This document shows positions 16,051 through 62,957 of a stretch of DNA of 64,000 bases, in pieces. Positions within the stretch are counted from its first letter, which is position 1. Every line of letters starts with the position of its first letter. The notes under the pieces are model-generated. The model saw nothing but the letters and a program-made list of their open reading frames with translations, had not been told where the DNA came from and ran no database searches. The position numbers and the translations under genes are program-made. Source of the DNA: Scleromatobacter humisilvae (GTDB taxonomy: Bacteria; Pseudomonadota; Gammaproteobacteria; Burkholderiales; Burkholderiaceae_C); the NCBI RefSeq assembly GCF_023231945.1, contig NZ_JAJLJH010000003.1, forward strand, positions 496,001 to 560,000, given 5' to 3'.

Positions 16051-16097
16051 GTAACCCATCGAGGGGATGCGTAGCCTGGGCACATGGCTCGCACACT
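16051..16097 (+). promoter_or_regulatory. CCCC/GGGG-element promoter, copy a
   Basis: Element GTAACCCATCGAGGGGATGC (16051-16070) points to the plus-strand gene. The -10-like block CACACT is at 16092-16097, giving a predicted transcript start near 16104. That lies after the first in-frame ATG (16084) and supports the GTG at 16180 as the true start of the downstream gene. Confidence 0.6.
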
Positions 16098-16179
16098 CGG
16101 GCCATGTCGCATTTCCTTCAACGAGGTGCTCGATGACATCAGCGATCGCGTCCTTCGCGGCGACGCTCCGGAGGTCGAG

Positions 16180-16563
16180 GTGACGATCCATCCGATCGTG
16201 CACGTGGCCGCCAGGCGTCCGCAACTGCTGGTCGAGCATGCGAAAGCCTATGGCGACCTGGTGCTGGAGGAAGGCCGGCGCACGCTCGCCTCGCTGGTCG
16301 TCCATGCCGTGCTCTACGCGGCAGCCGCCGTGCTGGGCGTGCTCGGGCTTGTTCTTGCAGGCGTCGCCGTGTTGCTCTACGCGGCGGTCCCCGGCGAACT
16401 GCGCGACGCCTGGCTGCTGGTCGCCTTGCCGTGCGCGACCATGGTCGCGGCGGGCGCCTGCGTGATCGTCGCCCGGGTGCTGCCGATCGACGTGAACCTG
16501 GATGTCCTGGGGCGACAGGTGAGGGCGGACATCGACATGATCCACCAGGCGGAGCAGCCATGA
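16180..16563 (+). CDS. Small inner-membrane protein, phage-holin-like (DUF1469-type)
   Basis: 127 residues from the GTG at 16180, which has a strong Shine-Dalgarno (GGAGG, 5 nt before it). It starts at VTIHPIVHVAARRPQLLVEH, like family members that begin with a short HP...QPQLLVEHAEAY-type helix. Two membrane segments (about 50-72 and 81-102) are followed by a soluble tail. An in-frame ATG at 16084 would add 32 residues but lacks a Shine-Dalgarno and precedes the transcript start predicted from copy a. The stop overlaps the next gene by 4 nt (ATGA). Function unknown; such proteins are often envelope-stress related. Confidence 0.65.
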   Translation: MTIHPIVHVAARRPQLLVEHAKAYGDLVLEEGRRTLASLVVHAVLYAAAAVLGVLGLVLAGVAVLLYAAVPGELRDAWLLVALPCATMVAAGACVIVARVLPIDVNLDVLGRQVRADIDMIHQAEQP

Positions 16564-16814
16564 ACGGCGCGCGGGAGGACCCTGAGGCGCCGGCCGCGGA
16601 GGGCGGGCCCGGGGAGGCCGCCGCACTTCATCGTCTCGTGGCCTCGCGGGCCCGGATCCGGATGGCGATGGAGGCCCACGTCCGCGAGAGCGCGCCGCCG
16701 CCGGGTCCGCCGCGCGGCGCGCCGAGGTCGCTGGCGGAGCGACTGCTGGAGCGGGCGCGACGGCTGCCGGTCGTCCGAGCCGTCCTCGCGATCCGGGACT
16801 TGCGGCGAAGCTAG
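16560..16814 (+). CDS. Small hypothetical protein coupled to the holin-like gene
   Basis: 84 residues, rich in Ala, Arg, Pro and Glu, with no membrane segment or recognised motif. The ATG overlaps the upstream stop (ATGA), an arrangement seen for partner proteins of small envelope proteins. The C-terminal half ([20 protein letters not shown]) could form an amphipathic helix. Confidence 0.6.
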
Positions 16815-16879
16815 TTCGCCGCAGCCTTCCTGTCGTCACGATCCATCCACCCGAGACCCCGCACCCAAGGAGGCCTGCC

Positions 16880-17878
16880 ATGTCGCAAGACCGCTTCCAC
16901 GACCTCGCCGAGATCAGCCGCCGCCAGATCCTCATTGCCGCTTCCGCCGGGACGGCATCGATGGCCCTTGCGGGCACGGCGTGGGCGCGCAAAGCGGCAG
17001 GCGCGGAAGACTCCTCTCCTTCTTCTTCAACCCGCAAAGGCAGGGACGCCATGAGCACCATCACGACCAGGGACGGCAACGAGATCTTCTACAAGGACTG
17101 GGGCGACAAGACGGCACAGCCGATCGTGTTTTCGCACGGTTGGCCGCTGAGCGCGGACGACTGGGACGGCCAGATGCTGTTCTTCCTCCAGCACGGCTAT
17201 CGCGTGATCGCCCACGACCGCCGCGGGCATGGCCGCTCCAGCCAGATCGCGACCGGCCATGACCTCGATCACTACGCCGACGACCTGGCCGCGGTGACCG
17301 AGCACCTGGACCTGCATCGCGCCATCCACGTCGGGCACTCCACGGGCGGCGGCGAGGTGACGCGCTACATCGCCCGCCACGGCGCCCGGCGCGTCGCCAA
17401 GGCCGTCCTCGTGAGCGCCGTGCCGCCGTTGATGCTGAAGACGCAGGGCAATCCCGGCGGCCTGCCGATCGACGTGTTCGACGGGATCCGCGCGGGCGTC
17501 GCTGCCAACCGCCCGCAGTTCTACCTGGACCTGACGATCCCGTTCTACGGCTTCAACCGGCCGAACGCCAAGGTCTCGGAAGGCATTCGCCAACACTGGT
17601 GGCTGCAGGGCATGATGGGCTCGATCCAGGCGCATTACCTGGGTGTCAAGGCCTTCTCCGAGACCGACTTCACCGAGGACCTGAAGAAGATCGAGGTGCC
17701 CACGCTGGTCATGCACGGGACCGACGACCAGATCGTTCCTTACGCCGACGCCGGCGTGCTGTCGGCGAAGCTGCTCAGGAACGCCACCCTCAAGCTCTAT
17801 GAGGGCTATCCGCACGGGATGTGCGCGACCAATCCGGACGTGATCAACGCCGACCTGCTGGCATTCTTCAAGGCCTGA
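16880..17878 (+). CDS. Alpha/beta hydrolase, non-heme chloroperoxidase family, with Tat-type leader
   Basis: 332 residues. The core (from MSTITTRDG) matches cofactor-free haloperoxidase/esterase enzymes: oxyanion-side HGWP, nucleophile Ser in GHSTGGGE, acid Asp in HGTDDQIVP, and the catalytic His near the C terminus (GYPHGM). Relatives usually start at the internal MSTITT (ATG at 17051, preceded by AGGCAGGGA). Here an in-frame 57-residue leader has a twin-arginine-like motif ([12 protein letters not shown]) and an AWA cleavage site, which suggests export. AAGGAGG precedes the ATG at 16880. Both starts may be used. Confidence 0.85.
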
Positions 17879-18176
17879 CTAGCCGCGGGAGATGAAGCGG
17901 TCCGCGCGGGCCGCCTGCAGCCGGATCTGGAAAGTGTTCATCGATCGTTCCAAGGTCGAGCGGTGGTCCGGAGACGACCGTGCGTGTCGCAGGCCGGTCG
18001 CGATACCTCCGGATGGCGGAGGCGGCCCTCGTCCCTCGGCCCTGACCTTGGGTATCCAGGCGACTGCCTCTCCAGAGGGATGCGCGAGCCTGTCTTGCGA
18101 GGCTAGGCGTTTCGATGGCCGCGCCGGATGCTGTCAGCACGCTGCCAGCCCCGGGGCGGTCAACAGGAGCACGATC

Positions 18177-18659
18177 ATGCAATTGAACGCTGCCGTATTC
18201 GAACCTGCGGCGACGACGCGGTCGGCCGTCGTTCCGCTGCGTCGCCGCGAGGACGCCGCCCTGGCCGAACTGATCGCCGGCTACGGCGCGCACGGCGGCC
18301 TCGCATCGACGGACGAACTCGTCGGCCTGATGCGGCCGCACTGGCGGCAGCCGATCTCGATCCTCGCCAAGTGGATCGTCGGCCGCAAGGTGGTGAGCTT
18401 CATGTCGCGCACCCAGTTCGTGCTGCCCGTGTTCCAGTTCGCTCGTCCGCAGATGACGCCGAACGAGGCCGTTGGCGACTGCTCGATCGCGCTGGCCGAT
18501 CTCCTCGGCGTCGAGGCCTTCGCGGCCTGGTTCGTCCGCCCTTGCGAATGGCTTGGCCGGAGAATGCCGGTCGACCTGCTGGCCAACGACCCGGGCGCGG
18601 TGGTCGACGCTGCCGGCCGGACTCGCCTTGCGCTGATGGCCTGTCGCCTGTCCGATTGA
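18177..18659 (+). CDS. Hypothetical protein with DUF2384/MbcA-ParS-like C terminus
   Basis: 160 residues from the ATG at 18177, preceded by CAGGAG. The C-terminal part (AWFVRPCEWLGRRMPVDLLAND) resembles the toxin-binding motif of Xre/MbcA/ParS antitoxins (W...P...LGG..P.DLL). No RES-domain toxin lies next to it, so it may be an orphan, or the resemblance may be superficial. The 298 bp before it hold no other gene. Confidence 0.55.
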   Translation: MQLNAAVFEPAATTRSAVVPLRRREDAALAELIAGYGAHGGLASTDELVGLMRPHWRQPISILAKWIVGRKVVSFMSRTQFVLPVFQFARPQMTPNEAVGDCSIALADLLGVEAFAAWFVRPCEWLGRRMPVDLLANDPGAVVDAAGRTRLALMACRLSD

Positions 18660-19391: not shown

Positions 19392-19437
19392 GTGCCCCAT
19401 GCGGGGGATGCAACACGACTGGGCGACGCCGGATAGT
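19392..19437 (+). promoter_or_regulatory. CCCC/GGGG-element promoter, copy b
   Basis: Element GTGCCCCATGCGGGGGATGC (19392-19411), identical to copy d-plus. The -10-like GATAGT is at 19432-19437, inside GCCGGATAGTGCG, a block also shared with copy d-plus at the same spacing. It drives the kinase/regulator/hybrid-kinase operon starting at 19469. Confidence 0.7.
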
Positions 19438-23843: not shown

Positions 23844-24683
23844 CTACTTCCGCGCCGCCGGCGAGAGCCTCGAGATGAACTCCAGCTCCAGCTCGCCTTC
23901 GTAGGTTTCGGCGCCGACCCTCAATGCCTCGGCCACGCGCGCCTGCGTCACGTCGCTGGCGACGCTCAGGTCGGACTCGTGCGCTTCCACCAGCAGCCCC
24001 TCCGCGAGGGAGCCGAAGGCGCCTGCATCCACGGCCGCCTTGAGATGCGCGACGGTATGCGCGGGAAACGAGGCGATGCGATGGGCCAGCCGCTCGACGA
24101 ACGGCGTCAGTTCGTCCGCCGGCAAGGCGCGATTGATGAAGCCGTAGCGTTCCGCCATCTCCGCCGTGAAGTCGTCGCAACCCACGAGGACTTCCAGCGC
24201 ACGGGCCCGCCCGACGAGCCGCGGCAGTCTCTGCGTGGAGCCGCCGCCCGGCACCAGGCCGACCGCGACCTCCGGCTGGCCGAAGATCGCCTTGCCGATG
24301 GCGGCGAAGCACATGTCCGCGGCCAGCGCGATCTCGTTGCCGCCACCCCGGGCACGTCCCTCGACCTTGGCGATGGTCACCTTGGGCATGTTCCTGAAGC
24401 GCTCGCCGATCATCTGCGTCAGGCGGAAGCTGCGCGTATGGGACGCCTTCTTGGGGGCGGCGCCAACCCGGCCGAGGCCGGAATGGGCGATGAAGAACTC
24501 GGGCAGCGCACTCTGCAGGACGACGACACGGATGCTGTCGTCGGCCTCGAGCTCCCGGCCCAGCCTGTCGAGCTCCGCCGACAGCACCTCGTCGAGCAGG
24601 TTGATCGGCGGGTGATCGATGCTGGCGAAGGCGACGCCGGAATCGAAGCGCAATTGGAAGCACTTGTAGTCGGCATAAGACAT
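23844..24683 (-). CDS. Enoyl-CoA hydratase/isomerase family protein
   Basis: 279 residues with the crotonase fold. Oxyanion-hole region GRARGGGNEIALAADMC and QPEVAVGLVPGGGSTQRLPRLVG carry the family signatures, the latter with the expected catalytic Glu. An exact substrate cannot be assigned. It lies 38 bp after the FAH-family gene on the same strand, in an operon driven by promoter copy c-minus. Together they suggest degradation of an acyl or aromatic ring-fission product. Confidence 0.88.
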   Translation of the reverse strand: MSYADYKCFQLRFDSGVAFASIDHPPINLLDEVLSAELDRLGRELEADDSIRVVVLQSALPEFFIAHSGLGRVGAAPKKASHTRSFRLTQMIGERFRNMPKVTIAKVEGRARGGGNEIALAADMCFAAIGKAIFGQPEVAVGLVPGGGSTQRLPRLVGRARALEVLVGCDDFTAEMAERYGFINRALPADELTPFVERLAHRIASFPAHTVAHLKAAVDAGAFGSLAEGLLVEAHESDLSVASDVTQARVAEALRVGAETYEGELELEFISRLSPAARK

Positions 24684-24721: not shown

Positions 24722-25585
24722 CTAGGTCGCGTCCGCCTCGTCCCGGACGACGTTGCTCAGCACGCCGATGCCCTCGATCTCCACCTCGAAGACATCGCCG
24801 GCCCGCATGTACACGGGCGGCTTGCGCGCCGCCCCGACGCCGCCGGGCGTGCCGGTGATGATCACGTCGCCGCGCTCCAGGCTCATGGCGACGCTGATCA
24901 TCTCGATCAATGCCGCAACGCCGAAGATCAGCTTGTCCGTGGACGATTGCTGCATCACCTGGCCGTTCAGGCGGCCCTCGATGCGCAACCCGTGGGCGCC
25001 CGGCGGAACGGCATCGGGCGTGACCAGCCAGGGGCCGAACGCGCCGCTGCCGTCGAAGTTCTTGCCCATCGTCCACTGCGGCGTGCGCAGCTGGAAGTCG
25101 CGGATCGTCGCATCGTTGAACAGGGAATAGCCCGCCACATGGGCGAGCGCCTGGTCGCGCGGGATGCGGCGCCCCGGCTTGCCGATCACGATGGCGAGTT
25201 CGGCCTCGTAGTCGAGCGCCGTCGACTCGGGCGGTCGCCGGATCGGCGCCCGATGCGCGATCAGGCTCGTCGCGAAGCGGGCGAAGATCTCCGGATAGAC
25301 GGGCCGGTTCAGGCCGCTTTCCTCCAGGTGGTCGTCGTAGTTGAGACCGACGCACAGGATCTTCGGCGGCGCGGGCACCGGCGGCAACAGCCGGACGGCG
25401 TCCAGGTCGATCGCCGGCGACTGCGCGAGGCTGGCACCGATGCGCACCAGGTCCGCGCCTTGTGCGATCAGCTCGGGCAGCGTGCCCGGAAATCCGCCGT
25501 CGCGTCGCGTCAGGCCATGCCAGCCCGAACCTGCATCCGCCGCGATTCCGACGGCCCCACCTGTCTCGAAGTGAACGATTCGCAT
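24722..25585 (-). CDS. Fumarylacetoacetate hydrolase (FAH) family protein
   Basis: 287 residues from the ATG at 25585 (MRIVHFETGG). Metal-dependent hydrolase or decarboxylase fold. The conserved KILCVGLNYDDHLEE, the metal-ligand segment LDYEAELAIVIGK and the late ITGTPGGVGAARKPP are all present. Members act on fumarylpyruvate, acylpyruvates or 2-oxo-hept-3-ene-dioate; the substrate here is unknown. An earlier in-frame start at 25675 would run across the regulatory element at 25672-25691, so it is rejected. Confidence 0.9.
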   Translation of the reverse strand: MRIVHFETGGAVGIAADAGSGWHGLTRRDGGFPGTLPELIAQGADLVRIGASLAQSPAIDLDAVRLLPPVPAPPKILCVGLNYDDHLEESGLNRPVYPEIFARFATSLIAHRAPIRRPPESTALDYEAELAIVIGKPGRRIPRDQALAHVAGYSLFNDATIRDFQLRTPQWTMGKNFDGSGAFGPWLVTPDAVPPGAHGLRIEGRLNGQVMQQSSTDKLIFGVAALIEMISVAMSLERGDVIITGTPGGVGAARKPPVYMRAGDVFEVEIEGIGVLSNVVRDEADAT

Positions 25586-25645: not shown

Positions 25646-25691
25646 AGTCTCCTCGCCGCCCCTTGCCGGCGGCATCCCCCGGGTGGGTTAC
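25646..25691 (-). promoter_or_regulatory. CCCC/GGGG-element promoter, copy c-minus
   Basis: Minus-strand element GTAACCCACCCGGGGGATGC (25672-25691) with -10-like GAGACT at 25646-25651. Predicted transcript start near 25639, giving a 54-nt leader for the FAH-family gene. Confidence 0.68.
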
Positions 25692-25720: not shown

Positions 25721-25767
25721 GTCACCCATCGGGGGGATGCCGCCGCACGCTCGCGCAGACGCACACT
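25721..25767 (+). promoter_or_regulatory. CCCC/GGGG-element promoter, copy c-plus
   Basis: Element GTCACCCATCGGGGGGATGC (25721-25740), 49 bp from and inverted relative to copy c-minus. The -10-like CACACT (25762-25767) is one base further away than in most copies. Predicted transcript start near 25773, before the dehydrogenase operon at 25817. Confidence 0.65.
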
Positions 25768-34860: not shown

Positions 34861-34906
34861 AGTCTCGACGCCTCGCGCCGCGCCAGGCATCCCCCGGGCG
34901 GGGCAC
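34861..34906 (-). promoter_or_regulatory. CCCC/GGGG-element promoter, copy d-minus
   Basis: Minus-strand element GTGCCCCGCCCGGGGGATGC (34887-34906) with -10-like GAGACT at 34861-34866. Directs the molybdenum hydroxylase operon. Confidence 0.68.
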
Positions 34907-34936: not shown

Positions 34937-34982
34937 GTGCCCCATGCGGGGGATGCTGCGCGCCATCGCGCCGCCGGATAGT
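34937..34982 (+). promoter_or_regulatory. CCCC/GGGG-element promoter, copy d-plus
   Basis: Element GTGCCCCATGCGGGGGATGC (34937-34956), -10-like GATAGT at 34977-34982. Inverted relative to d-minus with start-to-start spacing of 50 bp. Directs the decarboxylase-like/PoxB operon at 35058. Confidence 0.7.
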
Positions 34983-35057: not shown

Positions 35058-35873
35058 ATGTTGAAGGGCTACACCGTCCCGCTGTCGCCGCTGGGCAAGG
35101 CCAACCTGGTGGCGGCGCCGCCCTGGCACTACTCGGGCGACGTCATCGCGCTCGAGTACTGGGCCGATCCGGCCGCCGCCAATGCGACGCTGCCGCCGGG
35201 CCTGTCGCCCGACCCGAAGTCGGCCGGCCACGTCCTGGCGCTTTTCGTCGACTGGCAGTTCACGGCGCAGGACGACGAGTACCTCGATCCGGCGCGCTAC
35301 CAGTACCGCGAGTTCTACTTCCTGGTCGATGCCGTCTACAAGGACCAGCCGGTCGCGTGGACGCCCTACATGTACGTCGACAACGACTCCGCGATGGCGC
35401 GGGGGCACGCGCAGGGCTATCCGAAGCGGCTCGGCACCGTGTTCCAGACGCGCAGCCACGCGGCGCCGAGCGCCGCCGCCGCGCCGATCGCAAGCGGCAC
35501 GAAGTTCGGCGCCAGCCTGTCCGTGCACGGGCAGCGGCTCGCCGAGGGCCGGCTCACGCTGAAGGAGGCGGTCGCCAGGCCACCTTCCGCGCTGCTGCGG
35601 CCGACCGTCAACCGCCGCTGGTTCCCGCGGCTGACGGCGGGCCGCCATGACGACCCCGCGGTCAACGAACTGGTGATGGCCGTCACGGACGACCTGCAGG
35701 CCGTGGGCACCTGGACGGGCGAGGCCGAGCTGAAGCTGCCCGAGGCGCGCGGCGAGGAACTGCACGCGCTCGCGCCGGTGCGCATGGGGCCGGGGTATCG
35801 CTTCTCGATGTCGTGCTCCATCAGCGACCTGAAGGTCCTCGAGGACTTCGCATCGAGCGCCCGCAAGGGCTGA
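35058..35873 (+). CDS. Acetoacetate decarboxylase-like protein, tandem paralogue 1
   Basis: 271 residues, ADC superfamily. The Schiff-base lysine position is Lys123 in [10 protein letters not shown], and [13 protein letters not shown] and FVDWQF are family-like. It is longer than, and clearly different from, the classical Adc at 62040. Members of this branch act on other 2- or 3-oxo acids or have aldolase-like activity, so the substrate is open. The N terminus MLKGY is shared with the next gene. First gene of an operon with poxB; GGAGA precedes the ATG. Confidence 0.85.
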
Positions 35874-44599: not shown

Positions 44600-44645
44600 A
44601 GTCTGCTGACCCGCGGGCAGGCCTCACATCCCCCGGGCGGGGCAC
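44600..44645 (-). promoter_or_regulatory. CCCC/GGGG-element promoter, copy e-minus
   Basis: Minus-strand element GTGCCCCGCCCGGGGGATGT (44626-44645), -10-like CAGACT at 44600-44605. Directs the PoxB-like/efflux operon. Confidence 0.67.
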
Positions 44646-44699: not shown

Positions 44700-44745
44700 G
44701 TACCCCACGCGGGGGATATCCGGCCCGGCGGCCGGCCCCGAGCAT
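44700..44745 (+). promoter_or_regulatory. CCCC/GGGG-element promoter, copy e-plus
   Basis: Element GTACCCCACGCGGGGGATAT (44700-44719), -10-like GAGCAT at 44740-44745. Directs cyoABCD with a predicted leader of about 100 nt. The 341-bp divergent gap 44510-44850 holds these two copies and nothing else I can name. Confidence 0.65.
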
Positions 44746-44850: not shown

Positions 44851-45777
44851 ATGGCAACGCAGTGGCAAGCGCGTCTGGCAGGCCTCGTCGGAGCGATGCT
44901 CGGCGCGTTCGCGACGACGGCGCGGGCCACCAGCGTGCTCGACCCCTGGGGGGCCGTGGGCGCATCCGAACTGCAGCTGCTGTACGAGTCGCTGGGCGTG
45001 ATGCTGCTGGTCGTCGTGCCGGTGCTCGTGCTGACGCTCGCGTTCGCCTGGTGGTTCCGCGCGTCCAACAAGCGCGCCACCTACATGCCGGACTGGGAAT
45101 ACAGCGGCAAGATCGAGTTCACGGTCTGGATCATCCCGCTGCTGGTCGTGCTGTTCCTCGCGGCGATCGCCTGGGTCGGCGCGCACGAGCTCGACCCCTA
45201 CAAGCCGATCGCGAGCGCGAACAAGCGCGTGCGCGTCGAGGTCGTGTCGATGGACTGGAAGTGGCTGTTCATCTATCCCGAGCTGGGCGTGGCGAGCGTC
45301 AATGAAATGGCGCTTCCCGTCGACGTGCCGGTGAGCATGGACATCACGTCCGCGACGGTGATGAACGCGATCTTCATCCCCGGCCTGGCCGGGCAGATCT
45401 ACGCGATGAGCGGCATGTGCACGCAGATGTCCGTCATCGCGGCCAGGCCCGGGACCTATCGGGGCCTGGCGACGCAGTTCAGCGGCGAAGGCTTCTCCGA
45501 CATGCACTTCAAGGTGGTCGCGGCGGATCGCGCGGGCTTCGACCAGTGGATCGAGGGCCTGCGCCAGTCCGGGCGTTCTCTCGACAAGGCCGCCTACGAG
45601 CAGCTGATCGCCGCGCATGCCACCGGGAAGACGACGTTCTACTCGTACGCCGAGGACGGCCTGTTCGACTACGCGCTGCAGCGGGGAACGAAGCCCGCCT
45701 CCTCGGTGGTCGCGCGAACGACAGCCCCCGACGTGGGCGCCTGTCAGGACATGACCCTTTCCAATGGAGTCGACTGA
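44851..45777 (+). CDS. cyoA: Cytochrome bo-type ubiquinol oxidase subunit II
   Basis: 308 residues. Two membrane helices (about 47-69 and 92-113) and a periplasmic cupredoxin domain. The segment [18 protein letters not shown] replaces the CuA ligands of cytochrome c oxidases, so electrons come from quinol. CyoA is normally a lipoprotein, but the N-terminal leader here ([14 protein letters not shown]) has no lipobox Cys. First gene of cyoABCD behind promoter copy e-plus. Confidence 0.93.
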
Positions 45778-45779
45778 AG

Positions 45780-47750
45780 ATGTTCGGCAAACTCACGCTG
45801 GCGGCGATCCCGTTCGACCAGCCGATCGTGATGGTCACGTGCTCGGTCATCCTGATCGGGATCGCGGGAATCCTCGGGCTGCTGACGTTCCTGGGCCGCT
45901 GGAAGTGGCTGTGGGACGAGTGGCTCACCACCGTCGACCACAAGCGCGTCGGCATCATGTACGTCCTGCTCGCGCTCGTGATGCTGCTGCGCGGCTTCAG
46001 CGACGCGATCATGATGCGCTCGCAGCAGGCGCTGGCGTCCAATGACGGCCGCGGCTTCCTGCCGCCCGAGCACTACGACCAGATCTTCTCCGCGCACGGC
46101 ACCATCATGATCTTCTTCATGGCGATGCCCTTCGTCGTCGGGTTGATGAACTTCGTCGTCCCGCTGCAGATCGGCGCGCGCGACGTCGCCTTCCCGGTGA
46201 TGAACGCGCTGAGCTTCTGGCTCACCGCCGCCGGCGCGCTGCTCGTCAACATCTCGCTGGGCATCGGCGAATTCGCGCGCACGGGCTGGCTCGTCTACCC
46301 GCCGCTGTCCGAACTGGCCTACAGCCCCGGCGTCGGCGTCGACTACTACCTGTGGTCGCTGCAGATCTCGGGGATCGGCACGCTGTTGTCCGGCGTGAAC
46401 CTCGTCACCACCATCATGCGATGCCGCGCGCCCGGCATGACGCTCTCGTTCATGCCGATCTTCACGTGGACCGCGCTGGCAGCCAACATGCTGATCGTCG
46501 CGGCCTTCCCCGTGCTCACGGCCACCTTCGCGATGCTGCTGCTCGACCGCTACGCCGACATGCACTTCTTCACGACCGACGGCGGCGGCAACGCGATGAT
46601 GTTCATCAACCTGATCTGGACCTGGGGCCACCCCGAGGTCTACATCCTCGTCATCCCCGCATTCGGCGTGTTCTCGGAGGTCATCGCGACGTTCTCCGGC
46701 AAGCCGCTGTTCGGCTATCGGTCGATGGTCATCGCGACGATGGGCATCACGATCCTCGCGTTCACGACCTGGCTGCACCACTTCTTCACGATGGGCTCGG
46801 GGGCCGACGTCAACGCCTTCTTCGGGATCACGACCATGGTCATCTCGATTCCCACCGGCGTGAAGATCTTCAACTGGCTGTTCACGATGTACGGCGGCCG
46901 CGTGCGCTTCACGTCGCCGGTGCTGTGGACGATCGGCTTCATGGTCACGTTCACGATCGGCGGCATGACCGGCGTGCTGATGGCCGTGCCGCCCGTCGAC
47001 TTCGTGCTGCACAACAGCCTGTTCCTGGTCGCGCATTTCCACAACGTCGTCATCGGCGGCGTCGTCTTCGGCTGCATCGCGGGGCTGACGTACTGGTTCC
47101 CCAAGGCCTTCGGCTTCACGCTCGACGAGACGCTCGGCAAGGCGGTGTTCTGGTGCTGGTTCGTCGGCTTCTACCTCGCCTTCATGCCCTTGTACGTGCT
47201 GGGATTCCTCGGCATGCCGCGGCGCATCAACCACTACGACGATCCGGCGTGGACGCCGTATCTCTACGTCGCCGTCGCGGGCGCCGCGCTCATCATGCTG
47301 GGCATCTTCCTGCAGATCGTGCAACTGGTCGTCAGCATCCGCACGCGGCACCTGCGGCGCGACCTCACCGGCGACCCCTGGCACGGCCGCACGCTCGAAT
47401 GGGCCACGCCGTCGCCGCCGCCGGTCTACAACTTCGCCGTGCTGCCGGCCGTCAGTGGTGTCGATGCCTACTGGGCCGCGCGTCACGAGGGCCGGCTCGC
47501 GGAACCCGGCGCCATCGAAGACATCGAGATGCCCAAGCCATCGTCGCTCGGCTTCGTCACCGCGTTCTTCGCCGTCGCGGGGGGCTTCGGCATGGTCTGG
47601 CACATCTACTGGCTGGGCGCGGGATCGCTGGTCGCCGCGCTGGCGTACTGGATCTGGCTGTCGTGGGGCGATGACGACGAGACGACGCTGCGCGCGCACG
47701 AGGTCGAGAACATCGAACGCGCCGCGCACCTGCGCACCGCCCGGGCCTGA
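45780..47750 (+). CDS. cyoB: Cytochrome bo-type ubiquinol oxidase subunit I
   Basis: 656 residues, heme-copper oxidase catalytic subunit that pumps protons. Low-spin heme His in [10 protein letters not shown], CuB/cross-link site [12 protein letters not shown], CuB His pair WLHHFFTMG, and heme ligands [10 protein letters not shown]. The N-terminal extension before TTVDHKRVG and the long C-terminal part are typical of CyoB. It starts 2 nt after the cyoA stop. Confidence 0.97.
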
Positions 47751-47762
47751 GAGGAACCTTCG

Positions 47763-48377
47763 ATGCAAGCACATGTCGTCCCGAACGGCCGCCACGGCGA
47801 GGAGGCGAGCCATCCGAATCGTCGCGGCATGACCGGCTTCGGGTTCTACCTCTACCTCCTGAGCGACTGCATCCTGTTCGCCACGTTGTTTGCGGCCTTC
47901 GCGGTGCTGCATCGCTCGGTGGCGGACGGGCCCGACGGGCACCAGCTGTTCGGCCTGCGCAATGCGTTCATCGAGACGGCGTGCCTGCTGACCAGCAGCC
48001 TGACCTGCGGACTCGCGATGCTCGCCTGCGATCGCCGGGACGCGCCATCGGCGAAGGGCTTTCTCGCGATCACGTTCGCCCTCGGCGCCGTCTTCCTGGC
48101 GCTCGAGCTGACCGAGTTCCATCGAATGATCGCCGATGGCGCGGGGCCGGATCGCAGCGCGTTCCTGTCGGCCTTCTTCACGCTCGTGAGCACGCACGGC
48201 CTCCACGTCACGGCGGGCCTGGCGTGGATCCTCATCCTGCTGCTGCAGTTGCGCCAGAAGGGCTTCACCGAAGCCATGGTGCGCCGCCTGTTCTGCTTCA
48301 GCCTGTTCTGGCACGTGATCGACGTCGTGTGGATCGGCGTGTTCTCGTTCGTCTACCTGATCGGATCCGCATCATGA
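47763..48377 (+). CDS. cyoC: Cytochrome bo-type ubiquinol oxidase subunit III
   Basis: 204 residues, five membrane helices. GFGFYLYLLSDCILFATLFAAF and the late STHGLHVTAGLAWI are the CyoC signatures. GAGAGGAA precedes the ATG. Its stop overlaps the cyoD start by 4 nt. Confidence 0.95.
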   Translation: MQAHVVPNGRHGEEASHPNRRGMTGFGFYLYLLSDCILFATLFAAFAVLHRSVADGPDGHQLFGLRNAFIETACLLTSSLTCGLAMLACDRRDAPSAKGFLAITFALGAVFLALELTEFHRMIADGAGPDRSAFLSAFFTLVSTHGLHVTAGLAWILILLLQLRQKGFTEAMVRRLFCFSLFWHVIDVVWIGVFSFVYLIGSAS

Positions 48378-48763
48378 CCCAGGTTCCCACCGCCTCCCTC
48401 GAGACCGCCCGCGTCACGCCGGGCACCGAGAACGGCCAGCAGCACGGCTCGCTGCAGGGCTACCTGGTGGGGTATGCCGCCGCCGCCGTGCTCACCATCG
48501 CCGCGTTCGCCGCGGCGCGCACCGCCGCGCTGACGCCGGCCAGCGCGATCGCGGCGATCACCGTGCTCGCGATCGGCCAGATGCTCGTGCACCTGATCTT
48601 CTTCCTGCACATCAGCACGACGCCCAACCAGCGCACCAACATCCTCGCCTTCGCGATCACGATGCTGATCGTGGTGCTGATCGTCGGCGGGTCGCTGTGG
48701 ATCATGTCGCACCTGCAGTCCAACATGATGCCCACGAGCCAGCTGATGCGGATGCAGCGATAG
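48374..48763 (+). CDS. cyoD: Cytochrome bo-type ubiquinol oxidase subunit IV
   Basis: 129 residues, three membrane helices with the conserved QMLVHLIFFLHI segment. Last oxidase subunit in the operon. No cyoE follows; the only heme O synthase gene in view is at 29706-30617. Confidence 0.94.
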   Translation: MTQVPTASLETARVTPGTENGQQHGSLQGYLVGYAAAAVLTIAAFAAARTAALTPASAIAAITVLAIGQMLVHLIFFLHISTTPNQRTNILAFAITMLIVVLIVGGSLWIMSHLQSNMMPTSQLMRMQR

Positions 48764-50456: not shown

Positions 50457-50502
50457 ACTATCGGACTCGACGCGGTCGGGCTCCATCCCCCGCATGGGGC
50501 AT
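50457..50502 (-). promoter_or_regulatory. CCCC/GGGG-element promoter, copy f-minus
   Basis: Minus-strand element ATGCCCCATGCGGGGGATGG (50483-50502), -10-like GATAGT at 50457-50462. Directs the NarL-family regulator with a leader of about 50 nt. Confidence 0.68.
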
Positions 50503-50560: not shown

Positions 50561-50580
50561 GGCGCCTCACCGGGGGATGC
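50561..50580 (+). promoter_or_regulatory. Degenerate CCCC/GGGG element, copy f-plus
   Basis: GGCGCCTCACCGGGGGATGC keeps only the right half of the consensus and has no clear -10 block at the expected distance. It points to the OmpR-type regulator gene about 365 bp away. The rest of the 547-bp gap 50399-50945 contains an AT-richer stretch (50755-50800) that may hold an ordinary promoter, but I cannot define one. Confidence 0.3.
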
Positions 50581-56022: not shown

Positions 56023-57429
56023 TCACCAGCTGACCTTGAACTCCACGCCCACGTACGTGCTGTCGTGGCCACCGGCATGGCGCAGCGTGTCGCCGACCTT
56101 GTAGTCCACGGCCTCGAGCGCCGTGCCGATGTTGCGATCGACCGCGTAGTCCATCCGCAGCTGCGCGTAGCTGCCCGTCCAGCGATGGCCGCCTCCGGCG
56201 GTGCCCGCGACCGGAATGTTGGGCTGCAGGTAGACCGCATCGGCCGTGGCCTCGCGCCAAAGCAAGCCGACGGCGCCGGCGACGCTGAAGTCATGGGCGG
56301 GCCGCAGCGTCACCGACGGCTTGAGATGCAGGAGGTTGGCGTCGCCCGTATAGCTGCCCAACGTGAAGTAGTAGCCGTTGGGAAAGAGCGGATTGAACGT
56401 CCCCTCGATGCGGTCGCCGTGGCGCCTGTCGCCGGAGGCGGCGTCGAACTGCAATCCGGCGCGGGGTTGCCAGGCGACGTCGGAGAGCGTGTAGCCCGTC
56501 CTCGCGCCGACGTTCCAGGCGCGGATCGTGCTCGCGCCGACGCGGCCCGCCTGCACCATGGCCTCGGCGTCCCAGTCGATGTCGCCCGCGCGGCCCGCGA
56601 ATCTGGCGTCCCAGGCATTGCGCCGCTCGTATCCGACGGCGTCGCCATAGCGCGCGCTGGCGCGCTCGTAGAGGGACCAGTACGCCGAGAGCTCGTTGTC
56701 CCCGAGCACGTGCCGTTCGACCCGCAGCGTGTGGAACCTGAACGTGCCGTTGGCGCTGTCGTCGAAGTCGTGCCCGTCCTTGTACTGCACCGGCTCGCTG
56801 ACGAACGCGATGAATCGCCAGTCCGCGGTCTCCCAGTCGGCCCACACGGCATCGAAGGACTGGCGCACGTTGGGGCCGTCGCGGGACGAGACGAAGCGCT
56901 GGATGTCGAAGGCGAAGTCCTGCCGTCCGACGCGCGCCTTCAAGGTGCCGCTGGAGAACCGGCCGACGTATTCGGCGAATGCCAGCCGGAGGTCGACACG
57001 ATCCTGGTCGGCGGACGAGCGGACCTGCTTGTCGAACGCGCGGTCGTCATCGAGCTGGGTGAAGATCCGCCAGTCGTGATCGAGATGCAGGTCGGCGTGC
57101 AGCTGCAGCCTCTGCAGCACGTACGAGTCGCGGCTCGTGCCGCCCGTCCCCAGTCCCGGCGCGTCATTCGTCTCGAATCGCTCGCGCAGGGTGAGGCCGA
57201 GCGACAGGTATCGCGCGGGATTCATGTCCGACAGCGCGATGTACTTCAGGCCGTCGAGCGGCTCCGTGCGCAGCGACGGGTCGCGCAGGGCCGACCAGTC
57301 CTCCTGCCAGCGATTCATCTTGATCGGGGGCCGACTGATCGTCTGGGCGCCCGCCGGTTCCTCCTGCGCGCGGGCATCCGCGAGGCCGAGCGCCGCAGCG
57401 ACTAGGGCGATGGCCAGCGGCGATTGCAC
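56023..57429 (-). CDS. Alginate-export-family outer membrane porin
   Basis: 468 residues from a GTG at 57429, with GAGAGG upstream and signal peptide VQSPLAIALVAAALGLADARA. The mature protein is a predicted beta-barrel (Alginate_exp family): RERFETNDAPGLGTGG, ARVGRQDFAFDIQRF, and ends in aromatic strands (YVGVEFKVSW with a terminal Trp). It probably takes up an anionic or organic substrate. Last gene of the six-gene minus-strand operon starting at 61613. Confidence 0.85.
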   Translation of the reverse strand: MQSPLAIALVAAALGLADARAQEEPAGAQTISRPPIKMNRWQEDWSALRDPSLRTEPLDGLKYIALSDMNPARYLSLGLTLRERFETNDAPGLGTGGTSRDSYVLQRLQLHADLHLDHDWRIFTQLDDDRAFDKQVRSSADQDRVDLRLAFAEYVGRFSSGTLKARVGRQDFAFDIQRFVSSRDGPNVRQSFDAVWADWETADWRFIAFVSEPVQYKDGHDFDDSANGTFRFHTLRVERHVLGDNELSAYWSLYERASARYGDAVGYERRNAWDARFAGRAGDIDWDAEAMVQAGRVGASTIRAWNVGARTGYTLSDVAWQPRAGLQFDAASGDRRHGDRIEGTFNPLFPNGYYFTLGSYTGDANLLHLKPSVTLRPAHDFSVAGAVGLLWREATADAVYLQPNIPVAGTAGGGHRWTGSYAQLRMDYAVDRNIGTALEAVDYKVGDTLRHAGGHDSTYVGVEFKVSW

Positions 57430-57466
57430 GGCGCGCCTCTCGCAGCCACGTCGTGTCGCGGCGCAG

Positions 57467-58378
57467 TCAATGGGCCGTGACGCGGTGGATCTCGGCGACG
57501 TAGCCGCCCGGGAACTCGACGAACGCAGCGGTGCGATCGTCCTGGGCCTCGGGCTCGCGCAGCACCTTGACGCCGGCCGCCCGGGCCTTGGCCAGGGTGT
57601 CGTCGAGATCGGCGACTTCGTAGCCCGTCGACTCGCGTCCGAACGGATACGGCAGGTGGCCGTCGCTGACGAGCACCAGCATCTTTCCGAACGTCGACTC
57701 GATGCGGACGCGCCGATACGACTCGCCGGGACGGCCGATCTCCGCGCCGGGCGCATTGGCGGCATCCGAGACCACCTTGCCCTGGGAGAACGCGACGAAC
57801 GACGCGACGAACGCCTTCACGCGGTCGGCGGAGACGTAGACCCGGTTCTCCGGGATGGTCGCGAACGGCGCATAGGCGGGCTTGGCCGTATGCCAGTAGA
57901 GCTGCATGTCGACGCCGCCGGGCCACTGGATGACGGCGTCGCGCCCGATCGGGTCGGGGAACGGCGCGACCAGCACGTCGGCGCCGGCCTGGCGCGCCGC
58001 CTTCACGGCGACATCGAGATCCGTGACGAGGTAGCCCGTCCTCTCGGCGCCGAACGGATAGGGCACGGGCGTCTGGAAGCCGAAGACGGAGACGGTGCCC
58101 ACGGGCGTCTGGACGAGCTGCGAGGTCGTGCTGCTTGGCGTGGGCGTCACCGTGGCGACCACCTGCTTCGTGCTCTGGCCTCCGAAGGTCGCCACGAAGC
58201 TCTGGACGAACCTGTCCACGTCGGCCGGCGCCACGTAGACGTGCGTGGTGTCGTATTGCGCGCCCACCGCGACCTTCGGCAAGGCCTCGGGCGGCCTGGC
58301 CTGCGCGGCGTCGACGACGAGAGCGAGGGCAAGGATCGCGCAAGAGCGGGCGAACGGACGGGCGCACGGCGAATGCAT
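57467..58378 (-). CDS. Secreted VOC (glyoxalase-like) protein with internal duplication
   Basis: 303 residues. Signal peptide about 1-27 (cut after AAQA). Two related halves, each with a Y-V-(A/S)-P/A-x-V-x-x-F-V-x-S-F-V start and a YPFG.E.TGY.V.DLD block, i.e. a duplicated vicinal-oxygen-chelate fold. VOC enzymes bind a metal and act on oxo compounds, but an exported form is unusual and its reaction is unknown. Confidence 0.82.
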   Translation of the reverse strand: MHSPCARPFARSCAILALALVVDAAQARPPEALPKVAVGAQYDTTHVYVAPADVDRFVQSFVATFGGQSTKQVVATVTPTPSSTTSQLVQTPVGTVSVFGFQTPVPYPFGAERTGYLVTDLDVAVKAARQAGADVLVAPFPDPIGRDAVIQWPGGVDMQLYWHTAKPAYAPFATIPENRVYVSADRVKAFVASFVAFSQGKVVSDAANAPGAEIGRPGESYRRVRIESTFGKMLVLVSDGHLPYPFGRESTGYEVADLDDTLAKARAAGVKVLREPEAQDDRTAAFVEFPGGYVAEIHRVTAH

Positions 58379-58412
58379 GGCGGTGTCTCCAATCAGGTTG
58401 CGTTGGGGGACT

Positions 58413-58808
58413 TCAGTGTCGAGCTGCCCGGCGCTGCGCCAGATCGTGCCACGCGACGAGCACGAAGCCGCCCACCAGGCCGATGTGCTCGAAGAACCCG
58501 TTCTCGGCCATGAAGCGCGCCGGCTGCGTCATTTCCCAGAAGCGGTTTGCCACGAACGTGGCCATCAGCGTGAATCCGGCGAGCACCAGCGCGCCGGCCC
58601 AGCGCTGGATGCCGCTCAGGACGAGGGCGGATGCGCCGAGTTCGACGACGATGGTCGCCACCGCCAGCGGCGCGGCGGGTTCCAGCCCGAAGTGCCGGTT
58701 CTCCGCGATGGCGCCCGCGAAGTCCGTGACCTTGTCGAAGCCGCCCTGCAGGTAGGCCGCGCACAGCGCCAGCAGCGCCAGCCAGCGGATGGTCACGCTG
58801 CCCAGCAT
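58413..58808 (-). CDS. DoxX-family membrane protein
   Basis: 131 residues, four membrane helices. GGFDKVTDFAGAIAENRHFGL and the late MTQPARFMAENGFFEHIGLVGGFVLVA are family-like. A GTG at 58814 would add two residues; the ATG at 58808 has GGGG at suitable spacing. It overlaps the amidohydrolase gene. DoxX proteins are linked to thiosulfate:quinone reductase or redox roles, unproven for this branch. Confidence 0.85.
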   Translation of the reverse strand: MLGSVTIRWLALLALCAAYLQGGFDKVTDFAGAIAENRHFGLEPAAPLAVATIVVELGASALVLSGIQRWAGALVLAGFTLMATFVANRFWEMTQPARFMAENGFFEHIGLVGGFVLVAWHDLAQRRAARH

Positions 58809-60685
58809 GCGCACCCCAGGGCTCCCCAGAAGCCTTGCAGATCGCCGGCGGGAATCGAGCGGCGCGCCGCGGCGAGGTGGTCATGCCCGTGGACGCGGCA
58901 GGCGCTCGCGCAGCCGCAGGCCGCGGCCATGCCGGGCCGCAGCGCGGCCTGCAGCGGCGCACCCTCCTTGTCGCCCCACGCACCGTAGCCGCCGAAGCGT
59001 CGCACCGGCGACCAGTCCGGCATCGCCGGCGGCGGGCCGGCATCGTCCCAGCCGGAGAACTCGCCCGCGCCATAGACCACCTTGCCGCCCACCACGGTGA
59101 GCAGGGCCGTGGTGTCGGCGATGTCGGATTCGGGGCACGCGAAGAAGTCCCGGTCGGGCACGGCCAGGTCCGCGAGCGCCCCCGCCTTGATCACGCCCTT
59201 GAGCCCCTCCTCGTCGGAGAACCAGGCGACCTTCTCGGTCCACATGCGCAGCGCGGTCTCCCGGTCGAGGCAGTTGCGTTGCGGCGTGATCGTCAGTCCG
59301 CTGACCGTCTTGCCCGTGACCAGCCACGCCAGCGAGACCCACGGGTTGTACGAGGCGACGCGGGTCGCGTCCGTGCCCGCCGAGACGTGGATGCCCTTGT
59401 CCAGCATCCGCGCCACCGGCGGCGTCGCCTCGGCCGCCGCGGCACCGTAGCGCTCGACGAAGTACTCGCCCTGGTAGGCCATTCGATGCTGGACGGCCAC
59501 GCCGCCGCCGAGCGCGGCGATGCGATCGATCGAGGCGTCGGAGATCGTCTCCGCGTGGTCGAAGAACCAGTGCAGGCCGGCGAACGGAACCTCGCGATTC
59601 ACGCGCTCGAAGACGTCGAGCGCGCGGCGGATGGTCTCGTCGTAGGTGGCGTGCATGCGCCACGGCCAGCGGTTCTGCGCGAGGATGCGGACCACGCCCT
59701 CGAGGTCGTCCTCCATGCCGGCGGGCATCTCGGGCCGGGGCTGGCGGAAGTCCTCGAAGTCGGCGGCCGAGAACACGAGCATCTCGCCGGCGCCGTTGTG
59801 GCGGAAGTAGTCGTTGCCCTGCTTGTAGCTCGAGCCCGCGGTCCAGCGCAGGAAGTCGTCCTTCTCCTGCTTCGGCTTCTGCGTGAAGAGGTTGTAGGCG
59901 ATGCGAACCGTCAGCTGGGACGAATCGGAGAGCTTCTGGATGACTTCGTAGTCCTCGGGATAGTTCTGGAAGCCGCCGCCCGCGTCGATCACGCTCGTGA
60001 CGCCGAGCCGGTTGAGTTCGCGCATGAAGTGGCGCGTGGAGTTGACCTGGTATTCGAGCGGCAGCTTCGGGCCCTTGGCGAGGGTCGCATAGAGGATGGC
60101 GGCATTCGGCTTGGCCAGCAGCAGGCCGGTGGGATTGCCTTGGCCGTCGCGCACGATCTGGCCGCCGGGCGGCTCGGGCGTCTCCCTGGTGTAGCCCACC
60201 GCGCGCAACGCGGCCGCGTTCAGCAATGCGCGGTCGTACAGGTGGAGGATGAAGACCGGCGTGTCCGGCGCGACGGCGTTGAGCTCGTCCAGCGTCGGCA
60301 GCCGCTTCTCGACGAATTGCTGCTCCGTGAATCCGCCGACGACGCGCACCCACTGCGGCGCCGGCGTCACCTGCACCTGGCGGCGAAGCATGCTCATCGC
60401 GTCGGCCAGGCTGCGCACGCCGTCCCAGCGGAGCTCCATGTTGAAGTTCAGTCCGCCCCGGATGACGTGCGTGTGGTTGTCGCACAGGCCGGGCAGGACG
60501 CGTCGGCCCTGCAGGTCGATGATGCGGGTCGACCGGCCGGCCAGGGGCACGATCTCCGCGTCGCTGCCGACCTGCCGAATGCGCCCGCCCTGGATGGCCA
60601 CCGCGGTGGCCACGGGGTTCGCGCGGTCGAGGGTGGTGACGGCGCCGTGATGGAGGATGAGATCGGGAGGGACTGTGTCAGCCAT
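58793..60685 (-). CDS. YtcJ-like metal-dependent amidohydrolase
   Basis: 630 residues. Metal-dependent hydrolase: CDNHTHVIRGG gives the HxH pair, further His in MHATYDET and WFFDHAE, and catalytic Asp in SAGTDATR. The composite beta-sandwich contributes N-terminal ILHHGAVTTLD and C-terminal VVGGKVVYGAGEF. It has an unusual tail of about 50 residues with CGCASACRVHGHDH and a final GCACWAA, which could bind a metal. Overlaps the XapX gene by 8 bp and the DoxX gene by 16 bp. Confidence 0.9.
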   Translation of the reverse strand: MADTVPPDLILHHGAVTTLDRANPVATAVAIQGGRIRQVGSDAEIVPLAGRSTRIIDLQGRRVLPGLCDNHTHVIRGGLNFNMELRWDGVRSLADAMSMLRRQVQVTPAPQWVRVVGGFTEQQFVEKRLPTLDELNAVAPDTPVFILHLYDRALLNAAALRAVGYTRETPEPPGGQIVRDGQGNPTGLLLAKPNAAILYATLAKGPKLPLEYQVNSTRHFMRELNRLGVTSVIDAGGGFQNYPEDYEVIQKLSDSSQLTVRIAYNLFTQKPKQEKDDFLRWTAGSSYKQGNDYFRHNGAGEMLVFSAADFEDFRQPRPEMPAGMEDDLEGVVRILAQNRWPWRMHATYDETIRRALDVFERVNREVPFAGLHWFFDHAETISDASIDRIAALGGGVAVQHRMAYQGEYFVERYGAAAAEATPPVARMLDKGIHVSAGTDATRVASYNPWVSLAWLVTGKTVSGLTITPQRNCLDRETALRMWTEKVAWFSDEEGLKGVIKAGALADLAVPDRDFFACPESDIADTTALLTVVGGKVVYGAGEFSGWDDAGPPPAMPDWSPVRRFGGYGAWGDKEGAPLQAALRPGMAAACGCASACRVHGHDHLAAARRSIPAGDLQGFWGALGCACWAA

Positions 60686-60938
60686 GCTGGTCTTCTCCGT
60701 CGGACTTGCACGAGGGTAACTGCCCGAACATGTGCGGCTTGACCTGGTCGTCCATCCACGAGGCCGTCGGCTGGATGCTCAGCGCCTGCTTGACGAGCGG
60801 CGGGATCTGCTCGCCCAGCAGGATGCCGAGCAGGCCGACGAGCGCGATGACGGGCGGCGCCGGAGAGCGCACGTTGAACAGCGCGTAGATCACGCCGACG
60901 AGCAGGCCGACGGCGAGCGAGACGATGTAGGGCTTCAT
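60678..60938 (-). CDS. XapX-domain small membrane protein
   Basis: 86 residues. Two membrane helices with the family pattern [38 protein letters not shown], followed by a polar tail. Function unknown; often found next to isochorismatase-like and amidohydrolase genes, as here. Shine-Dalgarno GGAGG before the ATG. Confidence 0.9.
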
Positions 60939-60959
60939 GGAGCGGCCTCCTCGGGACGA

Positions 60960-61613
60960 TCATCCTTCGTGCGCGCTGAACATCGTCTTGGCGTAGGTGA
61001 CGCCGAGCCCGTAGGCGCCGCCATGCGTCTTGGCGATGCCGGTCGTGAGCCCGTAGGTATCGCCGCGCGCCCAGTCGCGCTGCAGCTCCAGCAGGTACTG
61101 CAGGGCCGTCATCGGGCGCGCGCCGGCCTGCACCATGCGCGTCACGGCGCGTTCGTGCGCCTCCGTCGAGACGTCGCCGCACGCATCGGTCACGACGTAG
61201 ACCTCGTAGCCCTGGTCCAGCGCCGACAGCGTCGGGCCGACGATGCAGACCGAGGTCCACAGGCCGGCGAACACGAGCCTGTCCTTGCCGATCGCGTTGA
61301 GGGCCTTGATGACGTTGGCGTCCTCCCACGTGTTCATCGACGTCCGATCGATCAGCTTCTGGCCGGGGAAGGGTTCGGTGACCTCGGAGAACATGGGGCC
61401 CGAGAAGCTCTTCTCGGCCACCGTGGTCAGCACCGTCGGCACCTTGAATCCCGCCGCCGCCTGCGCGATCAAGCCCGCGTTGGTGCGAAGCACGACCATG
61501 TCGATGGACTTGGTGGCGAATGCCATCTGGGACTGGAAGTCGATCAGGACGAGCGCGTGGTCGGTGGGCGTGAGCAGCTTCGAGCCTGGCGTGGGTTTGG
61601 CGACGATGGACAT
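60960..61613 (-). CDS. Isochorismatase-family cysteine hydrolase (YcaC-like)
   Basis: 217 residues. Catalytic triad: Asp in ALVLIDFQ, Lys in TTVAEKSF, Cys in [12 protein letters not shown]. The YcaC branch hydrolyses amides or carbamates of unknown identity. First gene of the operon with XapX, amidohydrolase, DoxX, VOC protein and porin. GAGAGGAA precedes the ATG at 61613. I found no copy of the CCCC/GGGG element facing this gene. Confidence 0.9.
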
Positions 61614-61822: not shown

Positions 61823-61897
61823 CCGGCCGACGACGTCCTGGCCAGGCCACTGCGGGCGAAGGCGCTCGCGACGAGCCTCGCACGCTTGCTCGCAGCC
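61823..61897 (+). pseudogene. Remnant of a hybrid-kinase receiver C terminus
   Basis: The plus strand reads [25 protein letters not shown], matching the last residues of the receivers in the kinases at 53896-55926 ([22 protein letters not shown]) and 9549-15884. No start codon, upstream receiver sequence or stop fits a gene, so it is a decayed end of a former paralogue. The 426-bp gap 61614-62039 otherwise holds only promoter copy g. Confidence 0.7.
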
Positions 61898-61930
61898 GGG
61901 TGGGGCGTCCAGTCCCTTCGCCTCTCGCGA

Positions 61931-61976
61931 GTGCCCCGGCAGGGGGATGCCGCACGAGCGATCGCTCGAGCACGAT
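61931..61976 (+). promoter_or_regulatory. CCCC/GGGG-element promoter, copy g
   Basis: Element GTGCCCCGGCAGGGGGATGC (61931-61950), -10-like CACGAT at 61971-61976. Predicted transcript start near 61983, before the acetoacetate decarboxylase gene at 62040. Confidence 0.6.
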
Positions 61977-62039
61977 GGATGTCGTGCCAACGCATCGCGC
62001 CGCCGGCGCACGTCCGTGCCATCCATCGAGAAACATTTC

Positions 62040-62804
62040 ATGACCGAACAGGAAGTCCTCGACTCAGCGTATGCCATGCCTCTGACGAGGCCCGCCTATC
62101 CGAAGCCTCCGTACCGCTTCGTGGATCGCGAGTTTGTCATCATCACCTATCGCACCGACCCGGCTGCCCTGGCGCGGGTGGTCCCGGCCCCGCTGAAAGT
62201 GGCGGATCCCATCGTCAAGTACGAGTTCATCAAGATGCCGGATTCCTCGGGCTTCGGCTCCTACGTCGAATCGGGACAGGTGATCCCCGTGACGATGGAC
62301 GGCGAGCCCGGCTCGTATACGCACGCGATGTATCTCGACAACTTCGCCGGCACGGCCGCCGGACGCGAGGTGCTCGGCTATCCCAAGCTGATGGCCCAGC
62401 CCCGGCTCGACATCCAGAGCGACTGCCTGGTCGGAACGCTCGACTACAACGGCGTCCGTGTGGCGACCGCCACGATGACCTACAAGTACGACGCCGTCGA
62501 TCCGGCCAAGGTGGCGCGTTCGATGGAGGAGTCGGGCTACCTGCTGAAGATCATCCCGGATGTCGACGGCAGCTCGGCCCGGATCTGCGAGCTCGTGAAG
62601 TTCCGCGCGCAGGACGTGACGGTGAAGGGGGCGTGGACCGGGCCGGCAACCCTGGCCCTGCATCCTCATGTCCTGGCGCCCGTGGCGTTGCTGCCGGTGC
62701 TCGAGGTGGTGTCGGCGATGCATATCGTCGCGGACCTCACGCTCGACCGAGGTGCGGTCGTCCACGACTACCTGGCCGGCCGCACGCGACGCGGCACTCG
62801 TTGA
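62040..62804 (+). CDS. adc: Acetoacetate decarboxylase
   Basis: 254 residues, close in length and motifs to classical Adc: acetoacetate to acetone + CO2 via a lysine Schiff base. Lys116 lies in [14 protein letters not shown], and [21 protein letters not shown] is diagnostic. The second lysine next to the catalytic one in the clostridial enzyme (PKK) is Leu here. It is more classical than the two ADC-like proteins at 35058-36688. It is followed 263 bp later by a CoA-transferase, which could supply or remove CoA from the substrate. Confidence 0.9.
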
Positions 62805-62911
62805 GACGGCGTCGCTGGCGTTCCCGCAGGCGAGCGCGTTCCCTGGGCGCGCTCGAGCTCCGGGCGGCCCCGCGTGCGGCATTGCGCGCGCCGTGACGAC
62901 CTCGCCTGCCA

Positions 62912-62957
62912 GTAACCCATGCGGGGGATGCCTCGGCTGCGACGGGCCAGGGACGAT
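62912..62957 (+). promoter_or_regulatory. CCCC/GGGG-element promoter, copy h
   Basis: Element GTAACCCATGCGGGGGATGC (62912-62931), -10-like GACGAT at 62952-62957. It lies between two genes of the same orientation and points to the CoA-transferase gene at 63068. Confidence 0.65.

Follow-up and report, generated by a model that had tools for sequence, protein, structure and literature searches.

In Actinoplanes sp. SE50/110, MalT activates a 51-gene region in which the palindrome TCATCC-5 nucleotides (nt)-GGATGA is found at 17 transcription starts, 34.4 ± 1.0 nt upstream of the start and overlapping the -35 region, and the MalT box of Escherichia coli, GGGGA(T/G)GAGG, is placed at -34.5 to -35.5 (PMC7567727). 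MalT of E. coli belongs to the STAND proteins and depends on ATP (PMC4381067, PMC6468293, PMC10427625). Here, we describe a 20-base element, GTNMCCCNNNNRGGGGATGC, that is present in 11 good copies in a 64,000-nucleotide stretch of the Scleromatobacter humisilvae genome (contig NZ_JAJLJH010000003.1, positions 496,001 to 560,000), which is referred to at its full length as the window. Based on sequence comparisons, we consider it likely that this element serves a class II activator as its operator, with the MalT-like TPR-LuxR protein P0002 as the best candidate, and controls a regulon of quinone-linked dehydrogenases, a bo3-type oxidase and ADC-type enzymes.

All 11 copies listed in the original prediction are present, and their coordinates and strands have been verified. 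A search of the window with the earlier consensus at ≤3 mismatches recovers 9 of the 11, compared with 0.02 expected (100 shuffles); the copies at 44626 and 61931 exceed 3 mismatches to that consensus. A matrix built from the 11 copies gives them scores of 22.5 to 30.4 (17.0 to 29.2 when each copy is left out of its own matrix), and nowhere else in the window does the score exceed 10.0. As had been claimed, the copies are intergenic and oriented: 0 of 11 overlap a gene and 11 of 11 point toward the next gene, and predicted intergenic DNA makes up 7.7% of the 9.0- to 63.9-kb portion. These counts come from a gene list in which two starts were set by hand. The automatic caller's start at 61947, which would overlap the element at 61931-61950 by 4 bases, was replaced by the ATG at 62016, and with this start the NCBIfam ADC model aligns across positions 1 to 245 of 246. 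For the gene after 16051, the longer open reading frame (ORF) starting at 16084 was entered instead of the caller's GTG at 16126, but 16126 is the likelier start, since with 16084 the -10 box described below falls inside the gene. Gene calls trained on short stretches, which have the strand wrong in places, were left out. No site in window positions 1 to 16000 scores ≥6, in agreement with the claim that the core at 0 to 9 kb lacks the element.

In order to describe the promoters, we aligned 14 copies (the 11 from the window and 3 from the congener G003, discussed below), each with 15 nt of upstream and 60 nt of downstream sequence. Among the 75 columns outside the element, only two carry more than 0.8 bit: column 42, an A in 12 of the 14 copies, and column 46, a T in as many. 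The two exceptional copies (16051 and 25721) have the same A....T pattern one base later. The two columns correspond to positions two and six of a -10 hexamer, and the spacer between element and box is 20 nt in 12 of the 14 copies and 21 nt in the other 2. In the window, the hexamers with A second and T sixth are as originally listed in all 11 copies (20-nt spacer in 9, 21-nt spacer in 2), and, again as proposed, no TTGACA-like -35 box is visible by eye in the 14-copy alignment. From this geometry, transcription is predicted to start ~33 nt after the element, which would put the operator centre at about -42. With this predicted start, the copies have the arrangement of a class II activator-dependent sigma70 promoter, an operator over the -35 region at a fixed distance from the -10 box. 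The -10 geometry and the conservation in the congener thus argue for the proposed class II activator site centred at ~-42. As to the type of regulator, for which NarL/FixJ-type and CRP-type proteins had both been named, the NarL/FixJ (GerE) DNA-binding domain appears likeliest, in a MalT-like TPR-LuxR protein rather than one of the CRP type. The degenerate copy proposed at 50561..50580 (+) has a matrix score of -0.6 and no A....T box, and it was rejected as a site.

A genome-wide scan had been set beforehand as the test by which the prediction could fail, and it found sites that are concentrated in the window, intergenic and oriented. The 6.27-Mb genome has 8 exact matches to GTNMCCCNNNNRGGGGATGC, a pattern drawn from the window copies, and the window holds all 8. 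At ≤2 mismatches there are 44 matches, compared with 25 for a control read backwards, and 11 of the 44 are in the window. Exact matches are found in 4 of 60 genomes, with 8 in S. humisilvae itself (G000) and 1 each in G011, G017 and G034, and the -10 box is missing from all three of these single matches. Examination of the 33 matches outside the window (≤2 mismatches) revealed 4 with an A....T box at the 20-nt spacer and 0 at 21 nt, where ~0.8 are expected at p = 0.0256 (P = 0.0097). Three of the boxed sites rank among the five best-scoring outside sites: L045, which precedes an M32 carboxypeptidase gene; L044, which precedes a small ORF that matches no Pfam family; and L057, which precedes a gene for a membrane-bound PQQ dehydrogenase of the glucose/quinate/shikimate family (1088 bits versus a cut-off of 832.65). 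The other two of the five, L042 and L043, lack the box. The fourth boxed site, L100, has a matrix score of -3.1 and was taken as chance. With 2 to 3 sites elsewhere that carry the same box, one of them before the PQQ dehydrogenase gene, the regulon is not entirely confined to the region, as had originally been described. This last site is unsupported by conservation, because the PQQ dehydrogenase has no match in G003 or in a second comparison genome, G002, and because the 5.4-kb locus of its 50% homolog in a third, G001, has no site scoring above 7.9.

Conservation of the element itself was found in G003, which is assigned to the same genus. Its contig C6 carries a compact version of the cluster, with elements at C6:6751-14809, in the order cyo operon, divergent element pair, efflux operon, PoxB and two ADC genes preceded by an element, and P0002 ortholog. 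At the orthologous promoters (cyo, efflux and ADC-ADC-PoxB), 18, 16 and 19 of the 20 element bases are kept. In contrast, the 100 nt downstream of the three sites are 52, 52 and 46% identical, compared with shuffled means of 47, 48 and 46%, and in the 60 nt upstream, aligned without gaps, 26 of 60 positions are identical at the ADC site and 14 and 16 at the other two. At these promoters the element was kept, and its flanks have diverged. A search with RTRMCCCNNNNRGGGGATKB at ≤1 mismatch found 9 matches in G003 versus 0 in the control, 3 of them exact; the corresponding numbers are 8 versus 4 in G001 and 3 versus 2 in G002, none exact, in assemblies that are fragmented (G001 is 88% complete).

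The candidate activator P0002 (51847..53496, + strand) is a 549-amino-acid protein with a TPR region that matches TPR_MalT (PF17874) at 77.5 bits (cut-off 45) and a C-terminal GerE domain (PF00196) at 61.4 bits (cut-off 23.5). Its Pfam matches include neither an ATPase family, such as the N-terminal STAND ATPase of MalT, nor a receiver, and it reaches only 46.6 of the 537 bits of the NCBIfam MalT equivalog NF003420, through the GerE part alone. Because no ATPase family was matched, we term P0002 MalT-like rather than MalT. A Foldseek search with a structure model of P0002 points the same way, as the first match, and the sole one with an E value below 0.001, is MalT domain III (1hz4; E 1.5e-6). 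P0002 is the sole regulator of the window with an ortholog beside the G003 sites. Overall identity to this ortholog is 51%, and the two proteins agree at every one of the 27 residues from 517 to 543, around the recognition helix. Among 299 family genomes, 6 have a P0002 match that passes E 1e-25: S. humisilvae itself, G003 (54%) and four at 28 to 32%, so that only 2 of 299 (G000 and G003) exceed 50% identity. Among 369 class genomes, G000 alone passes E 1e-40; G003 did not turn up in this search. When 399 family genomes were searched for the ADC-type protein encoded at 35903-36688, 2 had it; these are G000 and G003, the same two that have P0002 orthologs. Based on its domains and on the position and conservation of its ortholog, P0002 is most likely the protein that would bind the element.

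Several results weigh against this assignment. Only one congener, G003, supports the link between regulator and element, and of six further near matches in that genome, four score above 11, none of these with a box, and two score lower. The operon of P0002 itself has no element, while the promoter of another regulator gene of the window, P0001, does. Another MalT-type protein, encoded on contig C2 (969-amino-acid frame), also exceeds the TPR_MalT cut-off. The structure model of P0002 is of low confidence (mean pLDDT, the predicted local distance difference test score, 65.7; two-sequence alignment). The self-complementarity of the matrix is modest, with a correlation of 0.5 at best, and the left half of the element, GTNMCCC, differs from TCATCC, the corresponding half in the palindrome of Actinoplanes.

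The same operator could instead be bound by P0001 (49664..50398, - strand), a NarL-like protein with a GerE domain (70 bits) and a weak receiver match (Response_reg, 19.7 bits, under the cut-off of 30.2), which would then activate its own gene, whose promoter carries the element with a GATAGT box, together with the cluster. We regard this as unlikely. In G003 the elements adjoin the P0002 ortholog, while the P0001 homologs are elsewhere, at C6:64521 and C13:41292 (42% and 39% identity). These homologs and that of G001 (44%) occur together with an amidohydrolase/isochorismatase module, at a distance of 8 kb in G003 C6, and the stretches concerned lack the element. About as improbable, in our judgment, is binding by a regulator encoded elsewhere, such as a LAL regulator at G000 C3 571747-574478, the MalT-type protein on C2, or another LuxR-type protein of the genome. 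Element sites do occur outside the cluster, and the first two candidates are the two genes besides P0002 that match TPR_MalT over the cut-off. The LAL regulator, however, has no match at E ≤1e-20 in G001 to G003 in a search made without a positive control, although G003 has sites, and L105, the stretch around it, has no site scoring ≥6; on these grounds it was set aside as the binder. It is a 910-amino-acid MalT-type LuxR protein (L105:11746-14478), encoded 12 kb beyond the window and close to an acyl-CoA ligase gene.

Two further explanations do without an activator. Any protein over the -35 region would fix the distance to the -10 box, and the element might thus be an alternative-sigma promoter or a repressor site. 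Against this stand the conserved A and T of a sigma70-type -10 box and the lack, by eye, of a TTGACA-like -35 box; a 20-bp two-part element with a 20-nt spacer is also not known from sigma54 or extracytoplasmic function (ECF) promoters. We consider this explanation very unlikely. The many near-identical copies within one region might also suggest a dispersed mobile or structural repeat, but this can hardly be correct, because conservation stops at the element except for the -10 columns, every copy faces a gene, and the orthologous promoters of G003 keep the element.

We return to the reading in which the element is an activator operator and P0002 its likely binder, and to the genes that the copies face (families assigned by Pfam and NCBIfam, operon extents judged from gene order). 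Two sites lie in the first part of the region. Copy 1 (16051..16070, +; box CACACT at 16092-16097, 21-nt spacer) precedes small ORFs at 16126-16814, and copy 2 (19392..19411, +; GATAGT at 19432-19437) precedes genes for a histidine kinase (19469), a receiver protein (20968) and a hybrid kinase (21453). Three divergent pairs follow. Copy 3 (25672..25691, -; GAGACT at 25646-25651) faces an FAA hydrolase gene (24722-25585) and an enoyl-CoA hydratase gene (23844-24683), and copy 4 (25721..25740, +; CACACT at 25762-25767, 21-nt spacer) faces genes for gluconate-2-dehydrogenase subunit 3 (25799), a GMC oxidoreductase (26518), a cytochrome c (28358) and heme o synthase (29706). Copy 5 (34887..34906, -; GAGACT at 34861-34866) precedes a Mo-hydroxylase set composed of Fer2 (34187), molybdopterin subunit (32026) and cytochrome c (30692) genes, and copy 6 (34937..34956, +; GATAGT at 34977-34982), which is conserved in G003, precedes two ADC genes (35058 and 35903) and a gene for a PoxB-type enzyme (36704; 979 bits versus a cut-off of 792). 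The third pair is conserved in G003 on both sides: copy 7 (44626..44645, -; CAGACT at 44600-44605) precedes a gene for a second PoxB-like enzyme (42797-44509; 686 bits, under the same cut-off of 792) and efflux genes (38588-42751), and copy 8 (44700..44719, +; GAGCAT at 44740-44745) precedes cyo-type quinol oxidase genes (44851-48763; CyoB at 1084.7 bits versus a cut-off of 1020.35). Copy 9 (50483..50502, -; GATAGT at 50457-50462) precedes the P0001 gene, copy 10 (61931..61950, +; CACGAT at 61971-61976) a third ADC gene (62016-62804), and copy 11 (62912..62931, +; GACGAT at 62952-62957) an ORF without a family match (63007-63816). We infer that the common theme of these targets is the feeding of electrons into the quinone pool and their drainage through an oxidase.

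Other features of the window lie outside this set. A transfer-messenger RNA gene (8297-8669; tag ANDSSYALAA) and a gene for a predicted 2,111-amino-acid signalling protein with protein kinase, AAA ATPase, GAF, PAS, histidine kinase and receiver domains (9549-15884) are found before copy 1. At 56023-61613, where the element was not found, there are alginate-export porin, amidohydrolase and isochorismatase genes, a set that is partly conserved without the element in G001, G003 and a gammaproteobacterial metagenome-assembled genome (L025, L026 and L034).

Mechanistically, a LuxR/NarL-type (GerE) protein, probably a dimer, would take the place of a -35 box, covering about -52 to -33, and would recruit sigma70 RNA polymerase to the poor -10 box (NANNNT) that follows after 20 nt. 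The binder would most likely be P0002, in which we found a TPR-LuxR architecture and no ATPase domain. Joint activation would then cover the GMC/cytochrome c and Mo-hydroxylase/cytochrome c sets, the two PoxB-type enzymes and the PQQ membrane dehydrogenase encoded outside the window, as well as the bo3-type quinol oxidase, heme o synthase, ADC-type enzymes, efflux system and signalling proteins. More tentatively, we suggest that an ATPase-free MalT-like TPR-LuxR activator with a signal of its own may control an "electron-influx" regulon through a single operator derived from the MalT box. In such a regulon, a dedicated bo3 quinol oxidase and decarboxylases would be coupled to several quinone-linked or periplasmic dehydrogenases, among them the PQQ dehydrogenase encoded away from the cluster. 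The ADC-like, PoxB-like, GMC, Mo-hydroxylase and quinol oxidase families, which have no clear common purpose, would be tied into one co-regulated programme, and the regulon as it stands offers 11 sites plus 2 to 3 outside, predicted starts and P0002 as the named candidate for the activator.

In other genomes, too, ADC-type genes lie close to genes for terminal quinol oxidases, as they do here (35058-38428 and 44851-48763). Their neighbours are cyo and heme o synthase genes in Bradyrhizobium sp. 184 (in the set of plasmid loci L039-L041), cyd-type genes in Rhizobium ruizarguesonis, and both poxB and cyd-type genes on Aminobacter sp. NyZ550 plasmids, which looks like a recurring module. A survey of distant ADC loci covered 10 ADC loci other than the G003 contig, 3 plasmid loci, 4 loci of MalT-like proteins (L016-L019) and 3 stretches from relatives (L082-L084). 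It gave 8 sites scoring ≥9, with a box in 1 of the 8 (L034), which is about chance, and the best site among the 10 distant ADC loci (17.3, L032) lacks the box. On the Bradyrhizobium sp. 184 plasmid, a MalT-like LuxR gene and the gene divergent from it flank a CCCCCCATTCGGGGGATGC site (L039:22267-22286). This site scores 11.6, a value reached in 3 of 30 shuffles, and has no box at the standard spacing; it is a weak lead.

Compared with described systems, this appears to be a familiar kind of control in an apparently undescribed case. No published description of the element or the regulon was found in the literature searched; searches for the gene combination and for NarL structures gave no matching papers, and the listed matches to motif strings concern the short string GGGGATGC and are unrelated by title. 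The NarL/FixJ response regulators share with this system the GerE domain and an operator centre near -42, but P0002 carries a TPR domain and lacks a receiver match, and the half-site of this element differs from the NarL heptamer, TACYYMT. The Actinoplanes region is likewise a regional regulon with a MalT-like LuxR regulator encoded within it and a motif containing GGATG, and its motif-to-start distance of 34.4 ± 1.0 nt agrees with the 33 nt predicted here from element to start. It differs in its palindrome (TCATCC-5 nt-GGATGA rather than GTNMCCCNNNNRGGGGATGC), in its unrelated gene content, and in that P0002 has no detectable ATPase. E. coli MalT resembles P0002 in its TPR_MalT and GerE domains, and its box shares with the element a GGGGATG half-site over the -35 region, but MalT is ATP dependent and is activated by maltotriose, whereas no ATPase was detected in the 549-amino-acid P0002, and the element here is an imperfect dyad with one copy per promoter. 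Within the MalT box GGGGA(T/G)GAGG, the GGGGATG portion fits the element, in sequence and approximately also in position, and the following C instead of AGG does not. This suggests that the element and the MalT-box operators may be kin, and if P0002 is the binder, a MalT-type operator would serve a regulator that lacks the driving ATPase module of MalT.

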